Position numbers and translations under genes: made by a program
The notes under the pieces: generated by a model
Told to the model about the DNA's origin: nothing
The model's input: the letters and a program-made list of their open reading frames with translations, nothing else
Databases searched by the model: none
Assembly: GCA_903904685.1 (NCBI GenBank)
Contig: CAIVDS010000044.1
Location: 25,105-89,104, forward strand
Origin: an uncultured Verrucomicrobiota bacterium
GTDB lineage: Bacteria > Verrucomicrobiota > Verrucomicrobiia > Opitutales > Opitutaceae
DNA length: 64,000 bases
Reading direction: 5' to 3'
Shown: one piece after another, positions 61,922 to 64,000 of the stretch
Layout of the letters: every line of letters begins with the position of its first letter
Position numbering within the stretch: position 1 is the stretch's first letter

Positions 61922-62116
61922 TCAAAGGGCCAGCAGGTTGTTGCGAGACTGTTTGATGGTCTTGGTAACCGCGCGCTGCTGCTTGGCCGACAGGTGGGTG
62001 TATTTACGCGGCAAAATCTTGCCGGTGTCGGTCACGTAGCTGCGCATTGCCTGCGGGTTCGTGAATGGAATTTCCTCAGGAGTGAGGCTGCGCTGGGTTG
62101 TTTCGGTCGTGCTCAT
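61922..62116 (-). CDS. rpsR: 30S ribosomal protein S18
   Basis: LTPEEIPFTNPQAMRSYVTDTGKILPRKYTHLSAKQQRAVTKTIKQSRNNLLAL. Confidence 0.93.
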   Translation of the reverse strand: MSTTETTQRSLTPEEIPFTNPQAMRSYVTDTGKILPRKYTHLSAKQQRAVTKTIKQSRNNLLAL

Positions 62117-62207
62117 GTGAAAAAGGCCCGAATGAAAAGCTTCTCAGCCTAGTATTGTCAACCTGCAATCCTCGGCTCAACTTGCTCGGGATTCAGGTTG
62201 GATCAAC

Positions 62208-62244
62208 GTCCCCGTAGCTCAAGTGGATAGAGCGATCGTTTCTA
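62208..62244 (+). pseudogene. 5' half of a tRNA gene (Arg-like), truncated near the anticodon
   Basis: GTCCCCG-TA-GCTC-AAGTGGATA-GAGC-G-ATCGT...: acceptor 5' strand, complete D-arm; no matching anticodon 3' stem, T-arm or acceptor 3' strand follows. Confidence 0.75.
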
Positions 62245-62288
62245 TCCACCTTGTTTTTCTAGGTTTTTCTAAGTCTTCTTCAGAGGTA

Positions 62289-62348
62289 ATGGACTTTTAT
62301 GGACTTGTAAAAATATTTTGTTCTGGTAGAACTTTTGGTAGAACTTTT
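62289..62348. repeat. short direct repeats between the tRNA fragment and integrase (possible arm-type sites)
   Basis: ATGGACTT at 62289 and 62299; GGTAGAACTTTT in exact tandem at 62325 and 62337. Confidence 0.6.
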
Positions 62349-62355
62349 TTTGACT

Positions 62356-63525
62356 ATGTGTGCCAGTTTAAATCGTCAGCCAAGGAGCCCATTTTGGATG
62401 GTAAAATTTCGTGCCGAGGATGGTCGGGTTGTCATGCGATCAACCAAGAAAAAGGACCGTCGGGAGGCGCTAAAAATAGCCATAGCCTGGGAGGATGCGG
62501 CGACCAAGGCTCGGGCAGGGGAGCTTACACAAGCAGCTTCGGTTAAAATTCTGAATGGTCTCATGGAAGCCACCATAGGGGAATCGTTGCAGGTCCCGAG
62601 TAACGAGGAGATTTTCAAAGGTTATCTGCAATCAAGGACAACCATGGGGCGTTCCAGCAGCACGGCAGCGAGGTATAAGCCGATCATTGACGGGTTTCTG
62701 GAGAAGCTGGGGGGCACGAGGGCGAAAGCATCCGTCAGCAGTTTGACGGCTGGGGAAATAGAGCGCTGGCGGGATGCGGAGTTGGCCAAGGGGAAAGCAG
62801 CCAAGACGGTCAACATGGGAGTCGGAGTCATTCGTGCCGCCCTGGAAGGATGCAAGCGAAAGGGCCAGATATTGAGCAACCCCGCCGATGCGTTGGAGGC
62901 GGTGGCGGGGCGTTCGGAGGAGCGCGAGCCATTTACGCAAAAGGACATCGCCGATCTGCTAAAGGTGTGCGTCAACGAAGACGCTGACTGGAAGACCGCG
63001 ATCTTGGTGGGTGCTTTGTCGGGATTGCGGCTTGGTGATGTCGCATCACTGACATGGGGGCAGGTAAATCTTGCCGAGGGGTATCTGACGGCATCACCCG
63101 ATAAAACAGACAAGGCCGTCTCCATAGCCCTCGCTCCTCAACTCAAGGCGCATTTGAACGAACTCGATGAGGGCAAGAAAAAGGACCCCGTGATGCCCAC
63201 ATTATCCGGCCGTAAAACCGGTAGCAATGGAGCCAACGCAGGTCTCTCCAACGAATTTAAGCGACTCATGAAAGACGCAGAGGTGGTGGTGCGGGACGGA
63301 CGTGCGAAAACCGGGGAGGGCAGACAGATGAAATCCAAGAGCTTCCACTCACTGCGGCACACCTTCACGACGATGGTGGCAACCTCTGGGGCGGGAGATG
63401 CGGTTACGAAATCGATGACTGGGCACTCATCCGATGACGTGTTCCGCCGTTACATCCACCTTGGGACTGCGACCCAGCTCAAGGCGCTGGAGGGGTTGGC
63501 GTGGTTGGGTGATAAAAAAGCTTAG
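62356..63525 (+). CDS. tyrosine recombinase / phage-type integrase
   Basis: SPFWMVKFRAEDGRVVMRSTKKKDRREALKIA...; LVGALSGLRLGDVASLTWGQV...SFHSLRHTFTTMVATSGAGDAVTKSMTGHSSDDVFRRYIH: R, HxxR, H, Y residues. Confidence 0.93.
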   Translation: MCASLNRQPRSPFWMVKFRAEDGRVVMRSTKKKDRREALKIAIAWEDAATKARAGELTQAASVKILNGLMEATIGESLQVPSNEEIFKGYLQSRTTMGRSSSTAARYKPIIDGFLEKLGGTRAKASVSSLTAGEIERWRDAELAKGKAAKTVNMGVGVIRAALEGCKRKGQILSNPADALEAVAGRSEEREPFTQKDIADLLKVCVNEDADWKTAILVGALSGLRLGDVASLTWGQVNLAEGYLTASPDKTDKAVSIALAPQLKAHLNELDEGKKKDPVMPTLSGRKTGSNGANAGLSNEFKRLMKDAEVVVRDGRAKTGEGRQMKSKSFHSLRHTFTTMVATSGAGDAVTKSMTGHSSDDVFRRYIHLGTATQLKALEGLAWLGDKKA

Positions 63526-63649
63526 CCGATGGCGTGTCGCTGAGATCGTGACGTTGTGGATTTGATGACGACAAACTACCTGAAATGTGGTCGGGGACAC
63601 GGACTGAAGTTTTCTTCCAACCGCCGACGTAGGTGATAAGCATCGGGAC

Positions 63650-64000
63650 ATGCCCAGCGCAGCCGTCCTCGCCAAAAGAGCATTGGTAGATTACCTTGAT
63701 CAACTCACGCGGAGGTTGGACGGAGGTGGACCGGACATCCTGTTGAATCTTCCGAGCAGAGAAGAATGGAACGAGATCACTCGGCTGGCACACGCAGCTC
63801 TAAATGAAAAAGGGCACGAACCAGAGTCATCAGGTTTTCTTCGATGGAAAGATTTGGCCAAGCTTGAGAAGGCCTATCGCAGTTCTTCGCTCAAGTTCGA
63901 GAAGTGGTATAGTCTGATCCTCGATGTGTTGGATGGGGAGGAGGAACCCTTCGCGCAGCTACAGAAAACGTATTGGGACGAATTGAAGCGCAACGAGTCA
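63650..64000 (+). CDS. hypothetical element-cargo protein (partial, runs off right edge)
   Basis: Open from ATG 63650 to window end: MPSAAVLAKRALVDYLDQLTRRLDGGGPDILLNLPSREEWNEITRLAHAALNEKGHEPESSGFLRWKDLAKLEKAYRSSSLKFEKWYSLILDVLDGEEEPFAQLQKTYWDELKRNES... Confidence 0.6.
   Translation, partial: MPSAAVLAKRALVDYLDQLTRRLDGGGPDILLNLPSREEWNEITRLAHAALNEKGHEPESSGFLRWKDLAKLEKAYRSSSLKFEKWYSLILDVLDGEEEPFAQLQKTYWDELKRNES

Follow-up and report, generated by a model that had tools for sequence, protein, structure and literature searches.

Near the right end of the window (the whole 64-kb stretch of DNA that was analysed), the region 62208–62355 is, almost certainly, the attL of an integrative and probably mobilizable element that has been put into the gene for tRNA-Arg(CCT) by its own tyrosine integrase. 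In related elements the intact tRNA at the far end has upstream DNA derived from the element, and the native upstream region has been left with the discarded half of the gene; because of this, it is probable that the element supplies the 5' half of the tRNA and, together with it, probably also the promoter.

The junction and its chromosomal setting

The left end of the element is a truncated 5' half of tRNA-Arg(CCT) (nt 1–35) located on the forward strand at 62208–62242, with the sequence GTCCCCGTAGCTCAAGTGGATAGAGCGATCGTTTC, that has been displaced by the integration. These 35 nt are 100% identical (35/35, E 1e-10 to 1e-11 in a search of the one genome) to the intact tRNA-Arg(CCT) found on contig C52 of the same genome (G000:C52:14865–14940, minus strand), and the match breaks off after nt 35, within the anticodon loop (TTCCTAA). 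The sequence-only reading of this DNA had described an Arg-like tRNA 5' half ending near the anticodon, and both the identity of the tRNA and the position of the break held in the comparison with the intact copy. A whole-tRNA search of the genome retrieved the copy on C52 as the single intact tRNA-Arg(CCT); the only other matches were the truncated half and a short stretch of another tRNA. ARAGORN found no complete tRNA in the 64-kb window, and at the junction Rfam called no tRNA and gave chance matches only (frnS, E 0.15). The right end of the window is the end of its contig (C44), with 1.76 kb of the element visible, and therefore the far end of the element cannot be in the window. This piece is too short to weigh the suggestion that the boundary is where a novel system should be sought.

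To the left of the truncated half are its native chromosomal neighbors. The gene rpsR, coding for ribosomal protein S18 (61922–62116, minus strand; Pfam PF01084, 9e-16), is the conserved left flank and adjoins tRNA-Arg(CCT) in element-free relatives of the genus. Between both lies the native upstream region of the tRNA gene (62117–62207, forward strand), as judged by comparison with ten relatives, which presumably holds the native promoter. It contains the motif TTGTCAACCTGCAAT (62155–62169), conserved across the genus in the side-by-side comparison with the ten relatives, and no match to the sigma-70 consensus was found along 62117–62207. The element-free genus relatives have the order rpsR, intact tRNA-Arg(CCT), gspG, i.e., the tRNA is uninterrupted between both genes. 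In the genome of the window, rpsR and the conserved TTGTCAACCTGCAAT are found to the left of the truncated half and gspG to the right of the intact copy on C52, so that the two flanks of the locus are on separate contigs (C44 and C52), each with its own part of the tRNA. With rpsR before the truncated part of the tRNA and gspG after the intact one, the element is located inside the tRNA gene. The comparison with element-free relatives, which had been proposed as a check of the idea that an integrative element splits a tRNA here, has thus come out in its favor.

The overlap of 35 nt might have been an assembler k-mer. We compared the ends of 20 contigs and found no common overlaps, except for four contigs that were equal throughout, apparently masked. 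The identical junction was found beside homologous integrases in many independent genomes, and because of this recurrence it is more than a chance arrangement.

On the side of the element, the junction is followed by an AT-rich P' arm (62243–62355, forward strand) with tandem direct repeats that are predicted to be arm-type integrase sites. The direct repeats noticed earlier beside the junction were found again as GGTAGAAC-type copies at 62253–62272, 62289–62308 and 62321–62344, and related elements have the GGTAGAACTTTTGGTAGAACTT motif of this arm at either end. The right edge of the tRNA half is covered by a perfect 9-nt inverted repeat, GTGGATAGA-N9-TCTATCCAC (62223–62249, forward strand), whose left arm (62223–62231) is tRNA and whose right arm (62241–62249) is element DNA, and that we predict to be the core-binding sites of the integrase. 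This dyad and the CTTGTTTTTC that follows (62223–62258) resemble an intrinsic terminator that would separate int from the native tRNA upstream region. By count such hairpins are not significant against shuffles (one found, at 62223–62249, versus 0.5 expected); the z of −2.9 in the window, weak in relatives, is a lead only.

The integrase gene (62356–63525, forward strand) has an ATG start, with an alternative in-frame TTG upstream at 62335, and was identified as a tyrosine recombinase by PF00589 (5.6e-15), by the PHROG integrase models (1.3e-42) and by alignment. It reads away from the tRNA and into the element, i.e., it points inward as had been said before. The frame is open, and R232, K257, H338, R341, H364 and Y373, which we take to be the catalytic residues of a tyrosine recombinase, are invariant among the homologues in the alignment. 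NCBIfam gave this group of integrases no assignment beyond generic recombinase models. The gene is followed by ORF2 (63650–64000, forward strand), an element gene open at the contig end that has no convincing family match and no homologue in the 252 genomes of the family search.

Such a junction could also be the scar of an old insertion that is no longer mobile, a dead remnant in which the integrase has been left behind. The body of the element is unassembled and its mobility is a prediction, which would suit a remnant, but an open integrase frame with conserved catalytic residues, two identical copies of the 35 nt, and arm repeats and a dyad that are both intact speak against it. We consider this explanation unlikely.

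Related elements and the far end

Integrases 51–65% identical to that of the window were found in genomes G152, G163, G156, G134 and G185, together with a partial one in G183, and all of them come after a tRNA-Arg 5' half. The same location was found for more distant integrases in G348, in G312 and in a MAG titled Prosthecobacter debontii (L227). The order at the junction is shared, with the 5' half followed by TATCC in most of them, then by GGTAGAACTTTT repeats and the integrase; in place of TATCC, G156 has CATCC and G183 has GGTCG. A scan of named genomes with the integrase alignment found seven, and a phylum-wide sample of 388 genomes (E ≤ 1e-75) gave no further member of the group. The search of IMG/VR with the integrase alignment found no relative, and among the matches listed in the plasmid search there were only weak ones (22–30% identity over part of the protein).

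Two of the related elements are complete. The one in G185 (record JANYDW010000040.1, titled Oleiharenicola sp.) is 14,294 bp long, with the truncated half at one end and an intact tRNA-Arg(CCT) at the other, and the one in G348 has 37.7 kb, with the intact tRNA-Arg(CCT) at its far end. The GTAGAACTTTTGGTAGAACTT repeats found before int also precede the intact tRNA in G185, G152, G134 and G156. In three element-free genomes from the genus of G185 (G189, G186 and G180), rpsR and the native upstream region are directly before the intact tRNA; in G185 itself this native upstream region precedes the truncated half, and element DNA takes its place before the intact tRNA. The prediction that an intact tRNA sits at the far end is thus borne out by these two elements and by the C52 copy next to gspG.

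In the genome of the window, C52 starts exactly at nt 1 of the tRNA, so that the DNA just upstream of this intact copy is unassembled, and the far-end repeat motif, searched across the assembly, gave the int-side copy only. A mixed population or an assembly effect would be in keeping with an upstream region that is unseen and a far end that was not found in the assembly: the intact tRNA of C52 would come from element-free cells and the window's element would not restore the tRNA itself. However, the complete related elements do restore the tRNA at their far end, and no second intact tRNA-Arg(CCT) was found by the whole-tRNA search, which makes this reading improbable. We infer that the element of the window, like its relatives, ends at the intact tRNA-Arg(CCT). 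The other end of C52 (L034:1–1223) carries reading frames that, judged by sequence only, are those of an IS3-type transposase.

Some additional observations were made at related sites. In G348, the DNA before the truncated half (L193, G348:C4:63012) shares 76% identity over 108 bp with the element DNA before the intact tRNA (L190, G348:C4:100750); this similarity would fit with an earlier insertion at the same site. A search of the 60 kb that precede the truncated half found no second integrase of this type. Genome G355 has a fragment of a tRNA-Arg 5' half (nt 1–38) with a different junction, CCTAA|CACGAATTGG (L191, G355:C813:2114–2151), on a 5.5-kb contig where no integrase of the present family was found. 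On another contig of this genome (L156, G355:C546) there is an integrase similar to that of G312. It lacks a clean tRNA half, and only a remnant resembling GGATGGAACCGGCATTTCTGTC precedes it; the site may be secondary or decayed.

Position of the crossover and fit to the host

The attP would consist of the P arm, a tRNA upstream region borne by the element, a copy of tRNA nt 1–35, the P' arm and int, and would recombine with the chromosomal gene at the dyad, around nt 25–35. The product beside int would carry the native upstream region and the native 5' half, and the product at the far end would carry the upstream region and the 5' half of the element joined to the native 3' half, giving an intact tRNA. 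As the fragment beside the integrase is a 5' half, it is this half that the element would restore, and the DNA upstream of it that would be replaced.

Every crossover within the 35-nt identity block yields an identical product, and therefore the sequence alone cannot place the crossover within the identical pair. If it took place near nt 1, the 35 nt beside int would be mostly element DNA and the restored tRNA nearly all native, with the element giving the upstream DNA only. We find this very improbable. The dyad lies across the right-hand end of the block, and one part of it, GGATAG/CTATCC, is conserved, as GGATAG-N11-CTATCC is also found in G152, G163, G185 and G134, which suggests that these are the core-binding sites and that strand exchange would take place around nt 25–35. 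The decayed-looking site beside int in G355 (L156) resembles the GGAT...TTTCTGTC part only, and a full 5' half retained in attP would be hard to explain if it were unused.

The two 35-nt copies within one genome had 0, 0, 0, 0, 1 and 0 mismatches in the six genomes; the sole mismatch, at nt 25 in G156, is compatible with either placement of the crossover. Between five genomes the 5' halves differ at 2–6 positions. Within each genome, the strands of the acceptor and anticodon stems supplied by the element and by the host have 12/12 positions paired, versus 8–12 of 12 when the halves are swapped between genomes. The pattern in these sequences is consistent with, although no proof of, selection for a carried half that fits the 3' half of the host.

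That we have misread the orientation of an ordinary 3'-fragment tRNA island can be dismissed: 3' fragments are left by most tRNA islands (PMC4383910) and by the sister integrases described below, and in such islands the tRNA retains its own upstream DNA, but here the displaced fragment is nt 1–35 in sense orientation, with the native rpsR upstream DNA beside it on its outer side, as the native upstream position in relatives confirms.

Integrase family, comparable systems and cargo

Sister integrases (ca. 29–38% identical) are mostly located ca. 70–125 bp after a displaced tRNA 3' end, antisense to it, and the tRNAs involved are Cys, Leu, His, Ser, Val, Gln, Pro, Arg and others, some of these assignments being weak. 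We built a tree rooted with the Xer-type recombinases of the same genome as full-length outgroup rows, which has long outgroup branches and for which the sister integrases were picked by similarity to the window's integrase. A single clade of 3'-end users was rejected (p-AU 6e-12), so the 5'-half users nest inside the 3'-end family. One clade of 5'-half users was not rejected (p-AU 0.41), yet it is without strong support. The nesting is evidence for a switch of the target position within the tRNA gene. The genome of the window has a second integrase of the wider family (L182, G000:C34:1717–2868), beside a short antisense match to the 3' part of tRNA-His.

A tentative extension, which we consider less likely than not by a clear margin, is that the family, having used many tRNAs at their 3' ends, moved to the 5' half of a single one and thereby seized the expression of tRNA-Arg(CCT). 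If so, in the circle a tRNA-type promoter of the element would read via the 5' half into int; once inserted, the host promoter would read into int and that of the element would drive the tRNA. The supply of the AGG-reading tRNA would then be under the control of the element, and the host range would include only those hosts with a 3' half able to pair with the 5' half that is carried.

The element belongs to a minority class of tDNA islands, with a 5' fragment, that is itself known: in Islander, 159 of the 3919 islands have a fragment of the 5' type, and 2083 islands are anticodon-centred (PMC4383910). As in those islands, the site is anticodon-centred, and the interval between an intact tDNA on one side and a displaced 5' fragment on the other holds a tyrosine integrase gene. 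The fragment lies upstream of the intact tDNA and in the same orientation in G185 and G348, and across two contigs in the genome of the window, and the tDNA is uninterrupted at the same locus in relatives (those of the genus and, for G185, the three mentioned above). The difference is that here a single integrase group, all on tRNA-Arg(CCT), is found in Verrucomicrobiota. This group, with its fixed 5'-half target and its nesting in a 3'-end family, appears to be new within what was searched.

The pTN3-like integrases of Thermococcales have as attB a tRNA 5' half that extends through the anticodon (in pTN3, 41 bp are shared), and the tRNA is rebuilt but parted from its original promoter (PMC5495485, PMC8371274). 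In bacteria this separation is seldom encountered, at least as worded in PMC8371274 (citing Williams 2002). Here, too, a tRNA 5' half serves as attB and the rebuilt tRNA has new upstream DNA. However, pTN3 has an archaeal enzyme and its att site inside int, so that the gene is split, whereas the int found here is complete and ca. 92–113 bp outside the 35-nt identity block; because it is not split, the element works like pTN3 at the site but is no member of that family. In ICEKp1 a host tRNA promoter and a promoter at the element end drive int in different states (PMC13023037). By analogy, the layout found here, which also has a stem-loop before int, would allow the host tRNA promoter to drive int when integrated and the element-end promoter when circular; the tRNA of ICEKp1 stays on its own promoter, whereas here it would change promoter. 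Like the phages with tRNA-dependent lysogeny, the incoming element must supply a tRNA function that integration would destroy, but those phages bring a whole separate tRNA gene, with a core of ca. 10 bp, and here half a gene is spliced on (PMC10865867).

Islands that replace the front of a tRNA alter its upstream DNA and hence probably its promoter. The present group is recurrent and traceable: there are empty sites, two of its elements are complete, and sister integrases use tRNA 3' ends. With it one can test how integrases come to use another part of a tRNA gene, and whether a host tRNA can be controlled by an element.

The element of G185 carries a TrwC relaxase (6.6e-81) and a gene pair matching the Septu PtuA/PtuB models (7.5e-67 and 2.3e-56). 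The int-side contig of G163 (the far end of this element was not found) has RepA_C, Mob_Pre, type III restriction and modification proteins and HEC-01A/B-like proteins, and it is likely that all these named genes belong to the element. Since related elements carry Septu-like, type III restriction-modification and HEC-01-like genes, defence genes may enter Verrucomicrobiota by way of the tRNA-Arg(CCT) site. A small conserved protein without family match (FRLP.PG.R.P..GLSR), encoded in several of the elements (L116:15191–15595 and L117:7475–7795, both on the minus strand, and also the far-end contigs of G134 and G156), is a candidate excision factor.
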